This document shows, piece after piece, positions 7,232 to 18,354 of a stretch of 33,091 nt of DNA. This stretch comes from Deltaproteobacteria bacterium (lineage in GTDB: Bacteria > Desulfobacterota > Binatia > Binatales > Binataceae), in the NCBI GenBank assembly GCA_021780585.1, contig JAJXYM010000193.1, positions 1 through 33,091 of the forward strand, written 5' to 3'. Each line of letters starts with the position of its first letter. Position 1 is the first letter of the stretch. Below the pieces are notes generated by a model. It was not told where the DNA came from. It did no database searches and was given only the letters and a program-made list of their open reading frames with translations. The translations under genes and the position numbers were made by a program.

Positions 7232-9073
7232 TCAGCCGATTCGCGCCGCCGAGGGCGCTGCCGCCGCGGCCCGTCGCACCGTCGGCATCCGGATGATCAC
7301 GGTCGCGCCGACGCCGTCCGCGGATTGAATATCCATCGTCCCATGATGGAGATCGACGGCGCGCAGCGCGAGCGGCAGTCCGAGGCCGTTGCCGTTCTTT
7401 TTGGTGGTAAAATAGAGATTGAAGATTCGCGCGAGGTTTTCCGGCGCGATGCCGCCGCCGCTGTCGGCGATTCGGATTTCGACGAAGCCGCCCGGCGCGA
7501 GCGCGGTCGTGAGCCGGAGTGTGCCGCCCGCCGCCGCCATCGCGTCGCAGGCGTTCGCGATTACGTTGCGCAGCGCTTCGGCCAGCAGCGCGCGATCGGC
7601 GCTGATCGGCGGCAGGCCGGGGTCGAAGCCGGTTTCGACGCGGATTCCCGATCGGACCACCTGCCCGGCGACTTCGCTGAGCAGTTCGTTGACGGCAACC
7701 GGCGCGAGCTTGAGCTGCTCCGGCCGCATGAAGCGCATCAGCGCGTCGATCGCGCGCGACAAGCGCTCGATCTCCTGACGCACCGCGCGCAGCCGCTGAT
7801 CGATCGGCGCGCCGCGCTCGGCGTCCTGACCAAGCAGCTCGAGCTGCAGGTTCATCGCGTTGAGCGGATTACGGATCTGGTGGGCGACGCCCGAGATCAG
7901 GCCGCCGAGCCGCACCAGCCGGCCGGAATAATCGACCACATTTTCGAGTTCCCGCATCGATTCCAGATCGCGCGCGACCACCAGCAGGCCGGCGGGCTCG
8001 GGGCCCTGGCCGAGCGAGGAGATCGACACCAGCACGCGGCCGGCGTTTTCGCCCGCGCCCAGCTCCAGCGCCACGTCGCGCATCTCGGCGCCGGTGGCGT
8101 AGACCGTTTCGACCATCCGCGCGAGCGGATTGTCGCGGCCGAGCAGCAGCGGCAGCGGTTTGCCCTCGGCCATGCCGCCGGCGGGCAATCCCAGCCGGGT
8201 CTGCGCCTCGGGATTCGCGAACAGCACTGCGCCGCCCGCGTCGAGCAGCATCACGGCGTCGGTAATCGAGCGGAAGATATTGATGAACTGGCCGCGCTCG
8301 GTCTCCCATTGCGCGCGATTCGCCTTGATCCGCCGCGACAGTTCGTTGAACTTGGCGGCGAGCGTGCCAAGCTCGTCGCCCGAGCCGACCGGCAGCGCTT
8401 CGGCGTCGCGACCCTCGGCGATCCGTTCGAACCGCGTGGCCAGATCGGCCAGCGGACGCAGCATCAGCCCGCCCGTCAGCATCGCGCCGAGCAGGCTCAG
8501 GACCACGCCGGCGGCGCCGGCGGCGAGGATGTCGCGGACCGAGCGATGCGCCGCGGCGGCGATCAGCGCGGTCGAAAGACCGACGCGAATCACCGCGAGC
8601 GGATGGCCGTTGACGTCGATCGCCCGGCTCATCTCGTAAGTGCGGCCGCCGGCGATCGCGCCGAACCGGCTGGGCGGCCACCATGAGGCGAGCGCGGCGC
8701 GCAAATCGGCGAAGGGCGGCGTCGCCGCGATCGCGGCGGGCGGCGGATCGCCGGCCGGAGCGACGATCGGCGCGCCATCGAGCGCTTCGATCCGCGCGTA
8801 GACCACGCCCTTGCCGAACGCCTGCGCGGAATCGAGCAGCGTGGCGAGGGCGGCGTCGCCGCGCATCGCGGCGACCGGATCGCCGGTCGTATGGGTCAGG
8901 GAGCGGCGAATTTGCTCGAAGGCCTGGTTGATCAGCAGGTTGCCGGAATCGGCCAAATCGCCGACCATCACAGCGGCGGTGCGATCGATCTGAATCGCGC
9001 TGATGGCGACAAACGGCAATACCAGCAGGAGCAGGAAAATCGCGGCGAGTTTGGAGCGGAGGTCCATCGTCAA
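7232..9073 (-). CDS. NtrB-like sensor histidine kinase (TM, HAMP, PAS, HisKA, HATPase)
   Basis: N-terminal TM; HAMP-like LMLRPLADLATRFERIAEG; H-box GLISGVAHQIRNPLNAMNLQLELL; HATPase motifs VIANACDAM, DSGGGIAPENLARIF, TTKKNGNGLGLPLA. Confidence 0.88.
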   Translation of the reverse strand: MTMDLRSKLAAIFLLLLVLPFVAISAIQIDRTAAVMVGDLADSGNLLINQAFEQIRRSLTHTTGDPVAAMRGDAALATLLDSAQAFGKGVVYARIEALDGAPIVAPAGDPPPAAIAATPPFADLRAALASWWPPSRFGAIAGGRTYEMSRAIDVNGHPLAVIRVGLSTALIAAAAHRSVRDILAAGAAGVVLSLLGAMLTGGLMLRPLADLATRFERIAEGRDAEALPVGSGDELGTLAAKFNELSRRIKANRAQWETERGQFINIFRSITDAVMLLDAGGAVLFANPEAQTRLGLPAGGMAEGKPLPLLLGRDNPLARMVETVYATGAEMRDVALELGAGENAGRVLVSISSLGQGPEPAGLLVVARDLESMRELENVVDYSGRLVRLGGLISGVAHQIRNPLNAMNLQLELLGQDAERGAPIDQRLRAVRQEIERLSRAIDALMRFMRPEQLKLAPVAVNELLSEVAGQVVRSGIRVETGFDPGLPPISADRALLAEALRNVIANACDAMAAAGGTLRLTTALAPGGFVEIRIADSGGGIAPENLARIFNLYFTTKKNGNGLGLPLALRAVDLHHGTMDIQSADGVGATVIIRMPTVRRAAAAAPSAARIG

Positions 9074-9410: not shown

Positions 9411-10756
<1,346 letters not shown>

Positions 10757-10757
<1 letters not shown>

Positions 10758-12541
10758 CAGTGATGCGTCGGGGCCGGCAGTTCGACGATAAAGCGGCTGC
10801 CGCCGCCCTCGGGAGATTCGACGAAGATGCGTCCGCTGTGCGCCTGAACGATGTCCTTGGCGATCGCGAGGCCGAGTCCGGCGGCTCCTTTTTCGGCTCC
10901 GTCGGCGCCGAACTGGGCGTATTTCTCGAAGATGTAGTTGCGGATCGCGGGCGGGATGCCGGGGCCGGAATCGGCGACCTCGATCCGCACCACGCCCGCG
11001 CCCGGATGCACCGCGATTTCGATGCGTCCGCCGGCGGGAGTGTAGCGCAGCGCGTTGCCGACCAGATTTGACACCACCCAGGAGAGTTTCACCGGATCGC
11101 CCTCGAGAACCGGCGCCGCGTCGATCTTCTTGCACAACTGTATGCCCTTTTCGTGCGCCTGGATATTGAAGCGATCGGCCACCTGCGCGACGATGCGCGC
11201 GAGATCGAGCGGGGCCCGTTCGAGCGTGATCGCGCCGGTGTCGCCGCGCGCCAGATTGAGCAGGTTGTCGCTCAGAAGCTTCATCCGGGCGCATTCCTCG
11301 AGAATCGCCTGGACCAGATCGCGCTGGCGCGGCGCGAGCGCGGCTTCCTCGCGGCTCAGCAGTTCGGCCGAAAGCGCGAGCGAGGTGAGCGGCGTGCGTA
11401 ATTCATGGGAGAGCGTCGCGACCAGATTGGCGCGCGCGCGATCCTGATCGCGCAGGTAGGTCACGTCCTGCAGCAGCAGGATCGTGCCGAGCGCGTTGGC
11501 GGCTCCGTGGCGCAGCGGAATCGGCTTGAGCACGAACGAATGGTCGCGCCCGCGCATATGCAGCGTGACCTCGACGCGCTCGCCCGCCGCGCCCTTTTTC
11601 AGCATCCGGAGCGCGTCGCGCACGCGCAGGTAGTGCGGATGGTTGCTGGAGAGATCGTCGAAGGCGGCGCCGAGGGCGTCATGCTGCTCGAGGCCCAGAA
11701 TCAGCGCGGCGGTCTGATTGATATGGATGACCACGCCGTCGCGATCGATCAGCACGACGCCGTCCTCGAGGCTTTCGATAATCGCTTCGGTCTTGCTTTT
11801 TTCGAACACCAGACGCTCGACGTTGAGCTGATCGTATTGTTCGAGCCGTTCGGCCATCTCGTTGAACTCGCGCGCGACGGCGTCGAGTTCGGCGAGCTTC
11901 TGCGGACCCAGCCGCAGATGGGCGCGGCGCTGGCTGACGCCGCGCAGGCGCTCGGCGAGATCGGTCAGCGGATGCGCGAGCGTCCATCCGAGCCACCACG
12001 AAAGCGCCGTCCCGAGCGCCATCACCAGCGCGAGGCCGAGGCCGAATTCGTAGGCGAGGCGCGCGCCGAGGCGGCTCGCGCGGCTGTCCGCGCGGAACAT
12101 CGCGGTCTTGTTCATCGCGATCAGATCGTCGAGGCGGCCGTGCAGCGCGGCGAAGTCGGCGTCGTGGCCGGAATTGGCCGGCGCGCGCGCGCCCGCGGCG
12201 AACAGCCGATCGGCGCGGCGGTGGATGTCGTCCGCGAGTTCGGGCTCGCCAACCTCAGTGAAGTCGTGGTCCTCGATCTCGAGCCAGTGGAAAAATTCAG
12301 CGCGCGCGGCCGGCGCCGCGGCCGGGGCGCGGCCTTCGAGCTCCGCGATCTGCAAAGCGCGCAGCGCCGCGTGCATATGCTGCGCGGCGTCGATACTGAT
12401 GTAATTGCGGTACAGCGTTTCGCGGATCGCGCCGCCCAGCCGGTAGACGTGGGGCAGCGTATAAAGTCCCAGCAGCACCACCATCACCAGCATCGCGAGC
12501 GAGCCGTTGCGGATGCTGCTGCGGAGGGTGGGGCGGCTCAT
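10757..12541 (-). CDS. HAMP/PAS sensor histidine kinase, part of the split Kdp regulatory system
   Basis: Two TM segments with a helical periplasmic region; HAMP-like WTLAHPLTDLAERLRGVS; PAS; H-box LVATLSHELRTPLTSLALSAELL; HATPase NLVGNALRYTPAGG, DSGPGIPPAIRNYIFEKYAQFG. Overlaps the KdpD-like stop by ATGA. Confidence 0.88.
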
Positions 12542-13698
12542 GAGCTTTCCTCGGGCGCCGCGGCGGCGGCGATTTCGACGTCGAGATCGGGCGCCGCCGC
12601 CACCAGCCGCAGCGGCACCGCGCGGCCGAACCAGCGGCGCCAGAGCGGCTGGCGGGTGCGCCCGACGATGATTTTGGTGACCCCGTGCTCGCGCGCGAAA
12701 TCGACCATCGCGCGCACCACGTCGTCGGCTTTGAGCCAGACGGTCTCCGCGCCGAGATCGCCCGCCAGGTTGATATTGTCGAGCAGCTTGACGAAATTGC
12801 CGGTGTCGACGCGCGCGACGGATTCCGCCGGCGTCTCGACATGCACGGCGTACCAGTCGGCGTTGAGCTGGCCGGCGATGCGCGAGGCCTTGCGCAGCAG
12901 GGCCGCGCTATCGGCGGGATTCGACGACAGCCCGACCATCAGGCGGTCGCCGACGAAGGTGCGCCGGCCGCCCTCGCGCTGGCGGGTTTCGAGATCCTCG
13001 CGCCGGCGATTCAGCCCGCGCGCGATTTCGCGCAGCGCCAGCTCGCGCAGCGACGTAAGATTGCTCGGCTTGAAGAAATTCCTCAGCGCCTGCTCGACGT
13101 GATCGGCCGGATAAATCTTGCCCTCGCGCAGCCGTTCGCGCAGCCCCTCGATACTCAGATCGACGTTAACGACCTGGTCGGCGCGCGACAGCACCGCGTC
13201 GGGCACGGTCTCGCGCACGTCGACGCCGGTGACGCGGCGGACGATCGCGTTGAGGCTTTCGAGGTGCTGGATATTCATCGCGGTGATGACGTTGACGCCG
13301 GCGGCGAGCAGATCTTCGACGTCCTGCCAGCGTTTTTCGTGGCGCGAGCCGGCGGCGTTGGTATGCGGCAATTCGTCGACGATCGCCCATTCGGGCTTGC
13401 GCGCGACAATCGCGTCGAGGTCCATCTCCTCGATCGTCACGCCGCGATAGGCGAGACGTCGGCGCGGCACCACCTCAAGGCCGACGATGCGCTCGGCGGT
13501 TTCCGCGCGGCCGTGGGTCTCGACGAAGCCGACCACGATATCGACGCCGCGCTGGCGCATCTGATGCGCTTCTTCGAGCATCCGGTAGGTCTTGCCGACG
13601 CCGGCCGCCGCGCCGAGATAAATTTTCAGTAGCCCGCGCTGCGGATGCGGCGCGAGATCGAGGAAACTTTCAGGTTCGGGGCGCTTATCCTGAGCCAT
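12538..13698 (-). CDS. kdpD: N-terminal-only KdpD (KdpD sensor domain plus Usp-like domain, no kinase module)
   Basis: LAPHPQRGLLKIYLGAAAGVGKTYRMLEEAHQMRQRGVDIVVGFVETHGR is canonical KdpD N-terminus; PHTNAAGSRHEKRWQDVEDLLAAGVNVITAMNIQHLESLN; Usp-like C-terminal half. Stops before any TM or HisKA region. Confidence 0.92.
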   Translation of the reverse strand: MAQDKRPEPESFLDLAPHPQRGLLKIYLGAAAGVGKTYRMLEEAHQMRQRGVDIVVGFVETHGRAETAERIVGLEVVPRRRLAYRGVTIEEMDLDAIVARKPEWAIVDELPHTNAAGSRHEKRWQDVEDLLAAGVNVITAMNIQHLESLNAIVRRVTGVDVRETVPDAVLSRADQVVNVDLSIEGLRERLREGKIYPADHVEQALRNFFKPSNLTSLRELALREIARGLNRRREDLETRQREGGRRTFVGDRLMVGLSSNPADSAALLRKASRIAGQLNADWYAVHVETPAESVARVDTGNFVKLLDNINLAGDLGAETVWLKADDVVRAMVDFAREHGVTKIIVGRTRQPLWRRWFGRAVPLRLVAAAPDLDVEIAAAAAPEESS

Positions 13699-14286
13699 TC
13701 AGGAGCCGGTGGGCCGGCCGCCCGGGCGCAGGCGGTCGAGCGCGAGGTTGAGCATCAGCACGTTCACCCCCGGTTCGCCGAACAGGCCGAGAAAACGCGG
13801 CCGGGTGTTGGCGCGCACCAGCGCCTGGATCGCATCTTCGCCAAGCCCGCGCGCCTTCGCAACCCGGGGTATCTGCAACGCGGCGGCGGCCGGACTGATT
13901 TCGGGATCGAGGCCGCTGCCCGAGGCCGTCACCAGATCGACCGGCGCCGCGGTTGCGCCGGGATTGCGTTCGCGCAGCTCGCGGACGCGCGCGGCGACCG
14001 CCGTCGCGAGCGCCTTGTTGGTCGGCCCGAGATTCGAGCCGCCGGAGGCGTCGGCGTCGTAACCCTTGTCGCCGGCGGCGGAGGGACGGCCCTGGAAATA
14101 GCGCGGCGCGGAAAAGTTCTGCCCGATCAGCGACGAGCCGACGATCGCGCCGCCGCGCCGAACGAGACTGCCGTCAGCCTGGAACGGAAACAGCGCGTGG
14201 CCGATCTCCGCGATCGCCAATGGATAGACGAGCCCGGTCAGCACGGCCAGCACGATAGTCATTCGGAGGGCGACCCAAAGACGCAT
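13699..14286 (-). CDS. kdpC: K+-transporting ATPase subunit KdpC
   Basis: RMTIVLAVLTGLVYPLAIAEIGHALFPFQADGSL...SSLIGQNFSAPRYFQGRPSAAG; SGSGLDPEISPAAA. Confidence 0.95.
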   Translation of the reverse strand: MRLWVALRMTIVLAVLTGLVYPLAIAEIGHALFPFQADGSLVRRGGAIVGSSLIGQNFSAPRYFQGRPSAAGDKGYDADASGGSNLGPTNKALATAVAARVRELRERNPGATAAPVDLVTASGSGLDPEISPAAAALQIPRVAKARGLGEDAIQALVRANTRPRFLGLFGEPGVNVLMLNLALDRLRPGGRPTGS

Positions 14287-14304: not shown

Positions 14305-16350
14305 TCAGGCGAGATGCAGCGCCGAGACGATCAGGTCGATCGCCTTGATGCCGATGAACGGAACGATGACGCCGCCGAGGCCGTAGATCAGCAGGTTGCG
14401 CGTGAGGATCGCGGCCGCTCCCAGCGGCCGATAGGCGACGCCGCGCAGCGCCAGCGGAATCAACGCGACAATGATGAGGGCGTTGAAAATGACCGCCGAC
14501 AGGATCGCGCTCTCCGGCGTCGCCAGCCGCATGATGTTGAGCGACTGCAGATCCGGATAGCCGATCACGAACATCGCCGGAATAATCGCGAAGTATTTGG
14601 CGACGTCGTTGGCGATCGAAAAGGTGGTCAGCGCGCCGCGCGTGATCAGCAATTGCTTGCCGATCTCGACCACCTCCATCACCTTGGTCGGATTCGAATC
14701 GAGATCGACCATGTTGCCGGCTTCGCGCGCGGCCTGCGTGCCGGCGTTCATCGCGATGCCGACGTCGGCCTGGGCCAGCGCGGGCGCGTCGTTGGTGCCG
14801 TCGCCGATCATCGCGACCAGCTTGCCCTGCGCCTGCTCCTCGCGAATCAGCCTGAGCTTGGTTTCGGGCGTCGCTTCGGCGAGAAAGTCGTCGACGCCCG
14901 ATTCTTTCGCGATCGCGGCGGCGGTGAGCGGATTGTCGCCGGTGATCATCACGGTGCGCAGGCCCATCGCGCGCAATCGTTCGAAGCGTTCGCGGATGCC
15001 CTCCTTGACGACGTCCTTGAGATGGATCACGCCGAGCATCCGGGCGTTGTCCGCGACCACCAGCGGCGTGCCGCCCGAGCGCGCGATCCCTTCGACGATC
15101 GGGGCGAGGTCGGCGGGCGCGCGGCCGCCGCGCTCCTCGATGAACTTGATTACCGAGTCGGTGGCGCCCTTGCGAATCCGATGGCCGTGGAGATCGACGC
15201 CGCTCATCCGGGTCTGCGCCGAAAACGGGATGAACTGGGCGCCGTCGTCGCCAAGCTCGCGTCCGCGCAGTCCGTAGGCGCGCTTCGCCAGCACCACGAT
15301 CGAACGGCCCTCGGGCGTTTCGTCGGCGAGCGAGGCGAGTTGCGCCGCCTCCGCAAGTTCCTGCGGCAGCACGCCGGCGACCGGCAGAAACTCCTCGGCC
15401 ATCCGATTTCCCAGCGTGATCGTGCCGGTCTTGTCGAGCAGCAGCGTATCGACGTCGCCGGCGGCCTCGACCGCCCGGCCCGACATCGCGAGCACGTTAT
15501 GCTGCACCAGACGGTCCATCCCGGCGATGCCGATGGCGGAGAGCAGGCCGCCGATCGTGGTTGGAATCAGGCACACCAGCAGGGCGACCAGCACCGGCAG
15601 GGTCAGCACCGTGCCGCCATAGAGCGCGAACGGATAGAGCGACACGCACACCATCATGAAGATGATCGTGAGGCCGGCGAGCAGGATGCTGAGGGCGATT
15701 TCGTTGGGCGTTTTCTGGCGCTGCGCGCCCTCGACCAGGCCGATCATGCGATCGAGAAACGTCTCGCCGGGGTTGGCCGTGATACGCACCTTGATCCAGT
15801 CCGAGATGACCGTGGTGCCGCCGGTGACGGCGCTGCGATCGCCGCCGCTTTCGCGGATGACGGGCGCGGATTCGCCGGTGATTGCGGCCTCGTTGACGGC
15901 GGCGACGCCCTCGATCACTTCGCCGTCGCCGGGAATCACGTCGCCCGCCGCGACCATCACGACGTCGCCCTTGCGCAGTTCCGTCGCGGGCACGAGCGTC
16001 ACGGCTCCGCCGCCGGCGCCGATCCGTTTGGCCATCGTTTCGGTGCGCGTTTTGCGCAGATTGTCGGCCTGCGCCTTGCCGCGCCCTTCGGCCATCGCTT
16101 CGGCGAAATTGGCGAAGCCGACGGTGAACCAGAGCCAGATTGCGATCTGGACCTCGAAGCCGAGCTGCCGATGCGCTCCGGTCGCCAGATTGCCCACGAG
16201 GATCAGCGTGACGGCGAGCGCCGTGACCTCGACCACGAACATCACGGGATTTTTCGCCTGGACGCGCGGATCGAATTTGCGCAGTGAATCGAGCGCCGCG
16301 GCGCGGACGATTTTGCCGTCCCAGAGCGGGGTCGCCTTGCGTTCAGCCAT
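14305..16350 (-). CDS. kdpB: K+-transporting P-type ATPase subunit KdpB
   Basis: [11 protein letters not shown] phosphorylation motif, [64 protein letters not shown]. Confidence 0.97.
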
Positions 16351-16415: not shown

Positions 16416-18143
16416 TCAATAGAGCCGCCCGTGGCGCATCGCGAGTTGCTCGACGATCGGACCGAGCGCGTCGGCCGGAAAGAACGTCAGCGCCGCGACG
16501 ATCAGAATCACGCCGACCAGCAGAATGACGAAGACCGCGCCATTGGTCGGGAAGGTGCCGGCGCTGGGCGGAACCGTGCGTTTGGCCGCCAGCGATCCCG
16601 CCAGCGCGAGCACCGGTATTTTCATCAGGAAGCGCCCCGCGAGCATCACGAGGCCCAACGTGACGTTGTAGAAAGGCGTATTGGCGTTGAGGCCGGCGAA
16701 GGCCGATCCATTGTTCGCGGACGCCTCGGTGTAGGCGTAAAGGACTTGCGTGAAGCCGTGCGGACCGGGATTCGAGATTCCGGCCAGGCCGGCCGGCAGC
16801 ACGATCGCGATCGCGGCGGGAATCAGGATGACCAGCGGGAAGACGAGGATGAAGAGCATCGCGAGCTTCATCTCGCGCCCCTCGATTTTCTTGCCCAGAT
16901 ATTCCGGCGTCCGGCCGACCATCAGGCCCGCGATAAAGACCGCCAGCACGGCCATCACCAGCATTCCGTACAGTCCCGAGCCGACGCCGCCGAAGATGAT
17001 TTCGCCGATCTGCATGTTGAGCAGCGGGATCAGTCCGCCCAGCGGCGTGAAACTGTCGTGCATCGAATTGACCGCGCCACACGAGGTGTCGGTGGTGATC
17101 GTGGCCCAGAGCGCGGAATCAACGATGCCGAAACGGACCTCCTTGCCCTCCATGTTGCCGCCGCTTTGCGCGGCCGAGGCGCGTTGATCGGCGCCCGCGC
17201 GAGTCAGCATCGGATTGCCGCGCTGCTCGCTCCAGGTCGCGATCGCGACGCCCATCAGGAAGAGGATCGCCATCGCGCCGAACAGCGCCCATCCCTGACG
17301 CCGATCGCCGACCATCCGGCCGAACGTATGCGTCAGGCCCGCGCCGATCGAAATGATCGCGAGCATCTCGATCAGATCCGTAAGCGGCGTCGGATTTTCA
17401 TACGGATGCGCCGAGTTGGCGTTGAAAAAGCCGCCGCCGTTGGTGCCCAGCTCCTTGATCGCCTCCTGCGAGGCGACCGGACCCTGCGCGATCGTTTGTG
17501 TGGCGCCTGCGACGGTTTGCGTCTGAACGTACGGCGCGAAATTCTGCGGCACGCCCTGCCAGACCAGCGCGAGCGCCATCACGATGCTGAGCGGGAGCAG
17601 AATCCAGAGCGTCGCGCGCGTCAGATCGACCCAGAAGTTGCCGATCGTTTTCGCGTTGCGCCGCACAAAGCCGCGAATCACGGCGATCGCGATCGCGATT
17701 CCGGCGGCGGCGGAAACGAAATTGTGAAACGCCAGTCCCGCCATCTGCGTCAGGTAAGACATGGTCGATTCGCCGGCGTAGGCCTGCCAGTTGGTATTGG
17801 TGGTGAAGCTGGCGGCGGTGTTGAAGGCGAGATCGGGCGCGACCGCGCTCAATCCTTGCGGGTTCAGCGGCAGCAGGCCCTGCAGGCGCTGGAGCGCATA
17901 GAGCAGCAGCATCCCGGCCGCGCTGAACAGCAGCATCGCGACGGCGTATTCGACCCAGCTCTGTTCGGTTTCCGGATGGACGCCCGCGAGGCGATAGATC
18001 AGCCGCTCGATCGGCCTGAGCGCGGGATCGAGCAAGGTTGGTTCATGGCTGAAGACGCGCGCCATGTAGCGGCCGAGCGGCACGCTGATCGCGACGACGA
18101 TCAGGAAAAACAATCCGATTTGGATTACGGCGTTGGCGAGCAC
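16416..18143 (-). CDS. kdpA: K+-transporting ATPase subunit KdpA
   Basis: [71 protein letters not shown] start preceded by AGGAGAA. Confidence 0.96.
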
Positions 18144-18152
18144 GCGCTTCTC

Positions 18153-18245
18153 CTAGAATTTCTCCGGACGCAGCATCGCGTAAACGAGATATACGGTGAG
18201 CGCGGCGGCGATCGCCGACCCCAGCAGCAATTCCCATCCGTTCAT
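18153..18245 (-). CDS. kdpF: KdpF small membrane subunit (30 aa), absent from the supplied ORF track
   Basis: Hand translation of the minus strand: MNGWELLLGSAIAAALTVYLVYAMLRPEKF*. A hydrophobic helix plus VYAMLRPEKF tail is the KdpF signature, immediately upstream of kdpA. Confidence 0.9.
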   Translation of the reverse strand: MNGWELLLGSAIAAALTVYLVYAMLRPEKF

Positions 18246-18325
18246 AGTTTCGCGCATCCCCGGACGTAGCCGAGCGCGACCGCGAAGAAGGCGCACGTGG
18301 CCACGATGAAAATTACGTCGAGCAT
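18242..18325 (-). CDS. Candidate 27-aa membrane micro-ORF upstream of kdpF
   Basis: Hand translation: MLDVIFIVATCAFFAVALGYVRGCAKL*. Its stop overlaps the kdpF start (ATGA); single hydrophobic helix with a basic C-terminus. Confidence 0.6.
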   Translation of the reverse strand: MLDVIFIVATCAFFAVALGYVRGCAKL

Positions 18326-18338
18326 GACGACTCGATAA

Positions 18339-18354
18339 TGCAGCTTCCGTGCCC
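18339..18354 (-). promoter_or_regulatory. Candidate sigma-54 (-24/-12) promoter for the kdp operon
   Basis: Minus strand GGGCACGGAAGCTGCA against consensus TGGCACGNNNNTTGCW: invariant GG and GC dinucleotides at 10-nt spacing, GGCACG intact, two mismatches. Confidence 0.65.

Follow-up and report, generated by a model that had tools for sequence, protein, structure and literature searches.

KdpFABC is a textbook pump whose details have been worked out in Escherichia coli. Three distinct KdpA sequences, all of 557 aa, are present in the Protein Data Bank (PDB), presumably all from E. coli. Elsewhere, small single-helix accessory proteins are found with large membrane complexes, such as CydX of cytochrome bd and AcrZ of AcrB. 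The kdp operon of Desulfovibrio vulgaris (DVU3334-3339) is composed of kdpFABC, a KdpD divided between a sensor half and an independently encoded kinase, and then a regulator, and DVU3334 is presumably of the NtrC type. A study on D. vulgaris reported that this regulator controls its own operon and that 22 of 29 DNA-binding regulators were of the NtrC type (PMC3333781). In the kdpFABCDE operon of Caulobacter crescentus, about 100 nt between the promoter and kdpF were described as a structured 5′ untranslated region (PMC8552747).

Here, the kdp cluster of a Deltaproteobacteria bacterium (Desulfobacterota; Binatia; Binatales; Binataceae) was analysed in a 33,091-nt stretch of DNA (contig JAJXYM010000193.1), referred to as the window (Table 1). 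The region 9411-13698 resembled the D. vulgaris arrangement, since KdpD was split there into a sensor half lacking the kinase and a histidine kinase encoded on its own, and the regulator was of the NtrC type instead of KdpE-like. A long ORF at 9411..11294 corresponded to an over-extended version of this regulator gene, and a second PAS/HAMP histidine kinase was encoded just beyond the cluster (7232-9073, minus strand). However, the kdp operon of the window begins with a micro-ORF, while the available part of the D. vulgaris study, which concerns another lineage, mentions neither such an ORF nor a leaderless start (PMC3333781). The C. crescentus leader would be long enough for an ORF of this kind, judging by length alone, but no ORF was described there (PMC8552747).

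Table 1. Features of the kdp cluster in the window (positions are those of the window)
Feature	Coordinates	Strand	Description
Sigma-54 (RpoN) -24/-12 promoter-like element	18339..18354	minus	GGGCACGGAAGCTGCA; GG-N10-GC; 14 nt from the C at -12 to the micro-ORF start codon
Predicted 5′ untranslated region	18326..18328	minus	3 nt; predicted start site 18328, 12 nt after the C at -12
Micro-ORF, first gene of the kdp operon	18242..18325	minus	27 aa, ATG start, MLDVIFIVATCAFFAVALGYVRGCAKL followed by the stop; conserved, kdpA-linked, under purifying selection
kdpF	18153..18245	minus	30 aa; Potass_KdpF PF09604 (E=1.2e-9), TIGR02115 (8e-9); ATG overlaps the micro-ORF stop
kdpA	16416..18143	minus	PF03814, TIGR00680
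kdpB	14305..16350	minus	TIGR01497
kdpC	13699..14286	minus	PF02669, TIGR00681
KdpD sensor half	12538..13698	minus	KdpD and Usp domains, kinase absent; PF02702, NF038185
Separate PAS/HAMP histidine kinase of the kdp cluster	10757..12541	minus	
NtrC-type sigma-54-dependent response regulator	9411..10757	minus	448 aa; receiver, Sigma54_activat, Fis-type HTH

The initial annotation had placed a 27-aa micro-ORF at the head of the kdp operon, and this was confirmed by the ORF coordinates (18325..18242), which added the strand missing from the claim (minus). The micro-ORF stop codon, TGA, lies inside the string CTATGA, whose ATG is the start of kdpF at 18245. This ATGA overlap, also proposed at the outset, was borne out both in the window and in the 30 kdp loci fetched from the same order, all of which (30/30) carried the micro-ORF and its junction to kdpF.

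KdpA was present in 40 of the 41 genomes of this order, and a profile built from the 30 micro-ORF copies yielded 39 matches in the 41 whole genomes, every one of them (39/39) on the same strand as a kdpA and 129-158 nt ahead of it, which indicated that the gene is linked to kdpFABC and absent elsewhere. In the genomes without a profile match (G001, G004, G005 and G038), KdpA was missing, divergent or partial, or the assembly was 53% complete. Divergence was computed pairwise over 36 aligned copies (630 pairs), giving a pS of 0.73 versus a pN of 0.31 and a pN/pS of 0.42 in frame, in comparison with 1.0 and 1.4 out of frame and 0.97 for the 81 nt of adjacent noncoding DNA just upstream. The synonymous sites had diverged as much as this noncoding DNA, and the values were comparable to those of kdpF (0.66 synonymous, 0.25 nonsynonymous). 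Thus, the amino acid sequence is under purifying selection; an upstream profile search and a substitution test had both been suggested in the initial annotation.

The survey was extended to kdpA-anchored loci of other lineages, and an iterated profile was run against all six frames of the upstream regions (193 loci in all). Matches were found in 14/20 loci of Alphaproteobacteria, 22/28 of Acidobacteriota, 16/24 of Eremiobacterota, 5/12 of a Gammaproteobacteria sample, 5/23 of other families of the window's phylum, 3/21 of Bacteroidota and 7/15 of named plasmids, and homologues also occupied the same place in Burkholderiaceae and Deinococcus. The impression that similar tiny ORFs precede kdpF in other genomes therefore held for many of them. 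A Shine-Dalgarno-like site preceded the micro-ORF in 21/22 of the Acidobacteriota loci (4.1 expected), 12/14 of the Alphaproteobacteria (2.3 expected) and 7/7 of the plasmid set (0.8 expected). As a strand control, the iterated profile gave no significant match on the minus strand of the 193 upstream regions, and when the same 300 nt were read on the opposite strand, a hydrophobic ORF of 22-50 aa was seen at a single locus (1/193). The micro-ORF was not found at the surveyed loci of Enterobacteriaceae (Escherichia, Pluralibacter), Bacilli (Enterococcus, Lactiplantibacillus), a haloarchaeon (Halobacterium) and Picosynechococcus. In a quickly made KdpA tree of 182 loci, carriers were largely on one side and presence/absence required at least 19 changes, a count in which gains and losses are not distinguished. 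When a second genome collection was scanned with a sequence pattern, kdpA-adjacent matches came up in Binatia, Eremiobacterota, a Pyrinomonadaceae, a Chthonomonas and a Xanthobacteraceae genome; the remaining matches had no kdpA nearby.

Many of the profile-negative loci still carried a hydrophobic ORF of 26-34 residues in the corresponding place, such as MADVAFVLTTIAVFALVAFIAKGVAKL in a Streptomyces and MVTFLLLALAVLLFAICFLSVEFFEKI in a Bacteroidota genome, and these look-alikes, judged by eye, would add about 33 of the 193 loci. The Streptomyces and Bacteroidota ORFs are similar-looking and are treated as candidate homologues only. In some Bacteroidota (L208-L212), an unrelated-looking hydrophobic ORF of 30 residues was seen in the same place (MDVYYYLFRGILIFLILAGFAALSGIIFHTGG). 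At L173, L174, L179 and L216, which encode divergent KdpA paralogues, kdpF was preceded by a small ORF of another kind (MNLVIWLPAMF...GVCYLFMEACEKI or similar), possibly a second branch of the micro-protein family. In Deinococcus sp. D7000 (L093), a small hydrophobic ORF (MPGVLLGLLILLVLFGVAAWALKLPDNL) followed kdpF rather than preceding it, and at L192 a comparable ORF overlapped the kdpA start; both arrangements are possible order variants. Another locus (L037) harbored, in the first 400 nt of the analysed stretch and upstream of its intact micro-ORF/kdpF pair and kdpA, a decayed tandem micro-ORF and kdpF unit, in which a sequence ending in FEVALAYVQECNRL and a stop was directly followed by one ending in TPWELFLHAMVAASLVCCPVCVLTKPEKF and a stop.

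A G+C-rich genome makes the over-reading of short hydrophobic ORFs easy, and the micro-ORF could on these grounds be a functionless product of chance. This reading is contradicted jointly by the conservation, the selection, the kdpA linkage, the Shine-Dalgarno excess and the strand control, which leave it a negligible probability, and as a statement on the family it was refuted, the translation of the window copy itself being a prediction. It is thus strongly supported that the micro-ORF is a real protein-coding gene, conserved and tied to kdp.

The identity of this small protein was then considered in relation to KdpF (PF09604 / TIGR02115), which is likewise a single membrane helix of about 30 residues encoded just before kdpA; the micro-ORF, too, encodes a short single-helix protein between the kdp promoter and kdpA. 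The matching size, position and single helix, together with the endings of both proteins, often E-K/R-F or E-K/R-L, could suggest a second KdpF, that is, a diverged tandem copy replacing or doubling the first. However, the micro-protein carries the pattern F-F-x5-Y-V-x-G-C-[ED]-[RK]-L, in contrast to Y-L-V-Y-A-x-x-R-P-E-K-F in KdpF, and no profile similarity was detectable: the hhalign probability was 1.3%, within the range of 20 column-shuffled decoys (0.1-3.3%), on which basis paralogy was rejected. Moreover, the micro-ORF matched no family model and none of 23 diverse relatives (0/23) reached the Potass_KdpF / TIGR02115 model, and KdpF was also present in nearly every locus with a profile match. 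Descent from KdpF is therefore very improbable, and the earlier view that the micro-ORF is distinct from the separate gene kdpF was upheld. By analogy, the micro-protein probably works in a way similar to KdpF.

Neither the window micro-protein nor the 23 diverse members gave a significant or convincing match in Pfam, NCBIfam or PDB, so that this small-protein family was missed by both curated family libraries searched. Over 114 sequences, D3, F14, Y20, C24 and the final [ED][RK][LIV] were conserved. The gene had been called unannotated, which is true for most records, but RefSeq holds two relatives in the same place under uninformative names. WP_212667346.1 of Mycetohabitans (34 aa; L086 1008-1112) is named 'potassium ABC transporter ATPase', a name that must be wrong, as 34 residues are too few for an ATPase. 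WP_275451547.1 of Azospirillum is a 'hypothetical protein' whose 42-aa CDS comprises the conserved 27 residues and an N-terminal extension. No paper describing an ORF before kdpF was found in the openly accessible literature searched, so a prior description elsewhere is possible; kdp was unmentioned in the main text of transcript/translation papers on S. meliloti, M. tuberculosis and Bradyrhizobium.

The promoter and the start codon of the window operon are unusually close. In 24 of the 30 same-order loci, a GG-N10-GC element preceded the micro-ORF start by 13-15 nt (with the spacing of L007 counted from its first ATG), and in one more by 18 nt. In addition to this core, RpoN and an enhancer-binding regulator were present in the genome, and RpoN was encoded in 41/41 genomes of the order. 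At sigma-54 promoters, transcription begins 12 nt after the C at -12. A spacing of 13-15 nt combined with this rule predicts a nearly leaderless mRNA, which in the window would probably start about 3 nt before the ATG. In the genus g2 (L025, L026 and L030), the strong or best sigma-54 site was found 142-207 nt upstream, which indicated that the closeness of promoter and start, and with it leaderless translation, would be common but not universal in the order. L017 had no good sigma-54 element.

The proposal of translational coupling was only partly sustained. All loci of the window's order share the ATGA overlap, but a gap of 1-17 nt separates the micro-ORF from kdpF in most Alphaproteobacteria and Eremiobacterota, in many cases with a Shine-Dalgarno sequence before kdpF. 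Within the order, such sites preceded kdpF in 12/30 loci versus 3.5 expected, so kdpF need not rely wholly on coupling. These data also bear on the idea of a cis-acting leader ORF, in which translation would matter and not the product, either by loading ribosomes onto a leaderless message and passing them on to kdpF or by sensing translation for attenuation. The universal overlap in the order, the start codon close behind the promoter and the few Shine-Dalgarno-like sites before the micro-ORF (9/30, with 4.4 expected) speak for this idea. It is nonetheless improbable, as the protein-level selection resembles that of kdpF, the same residues are kept across phyla, and most members of the two groups named above have a gap at the junction, often with a Shine-Dalgarno site. 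The retention of the peptide under different promoters, with and without the ATGA overlap, favours a function of the protein and not of translation alone.

Taken together, these features would best fit a protein of one helix that is co-translated with KdpF, here from a nearly leaderless sigma-54 transcript, and serves KdpFABC as an accessory subunit or modulator, a reading deduced from sequence and considered reasonably probable. The operon's own NtrC-type regulator would serve the sigma-54 promoter, producing an mRNA that begins just ahead of the ATG. After loading on this message with almost no leader, ribosomes would translate the micro-protein and continue into kdpF via the ATGA overlap, and the two small proteins would be made together under potassium limitation. 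The micro-protein would insert as one helix, with the N-terminus outside and the basic C-terminus inside, and, in a manner similar to KdpF, would attach to KdpA or KdpB as an accessory subunit of KdpFABC, helping the assembly of the complex or tuning its activity. The conserved face of the helix was not clearly one-sided: the helix moment at 100 degrees gave a p of about 0.1, and among six angles compared the maximum was at 110. Like CydX and AcrZ, the micro-protein is a small product that annotation easily misses and that is encoded alongside a large membrane complex or would act on it, but its binding is putative and no sequence relation is claimed.

The gene order is also compatible with binding to KdpD or another membrane protein. 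The main rival of the subunit reading is a regulatory membrane peptide, whose helix would bind a sensor (the KdpD sensor half, the separate kinase or, elsewhere, KdpDE) or another potassium transporter, thereby feeding back on kdp expression rather than residing in the pump. Both an additional subunit and a regulatory peptide had been put forward as possibilities in the initial annotation. Sensor kinases are known to be targeted by a class of small membrane peptides (PMC3618439), and the sensor genes belong to the same operon in most same-order loci. The NtrC-type regulator was found in every cluster of the order where the fetched DNA reached far enough, except L255. This operon, the same as that of L020, was the sole one surveyed without a linked KdpD, kinase and NtrC-type regulator, and it also had no sigma-54 element close to the start. 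The retention of the micro-ORF there argues against a sensor ligand, weakly, as KdpD is encoded elsewhere in the L255 genome. Moreover, the gene stands beside kdpF, heading the pump genes, and not with the sensors. This rival is therefore rather unlikely. As the gene is linked exclusively to those of the pump, its product most likely acts on KdpFABC as an accessory subunit or modulator.

Since the solved structures are presumably all from E. coli and the micro-ORF was not found at a kdp locus of this species (L286), they could not have shown the micro-protein, which may thus be a pump partner missed by every solved structure. As the E. coli KdpFABC works without it, the micro-protein is not needed for transport as such. 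A bolder version, held more tentatively and with somewhat less than even confidence, is that a fifth subunit, made of a single helix, belongs to the Kdp pump of most bacteria and was overlooked because E. coli lacks it, and that in the window's order the nearly leaderless sigma-54 transcript sets its ratio to KdpF. If true, a conserved extra micro-protein in many phyla would make the model complex a reduced form, and with the micro-protein it could be tested in a simple way how a P-type ATPase is assembled or throttled by small helices.
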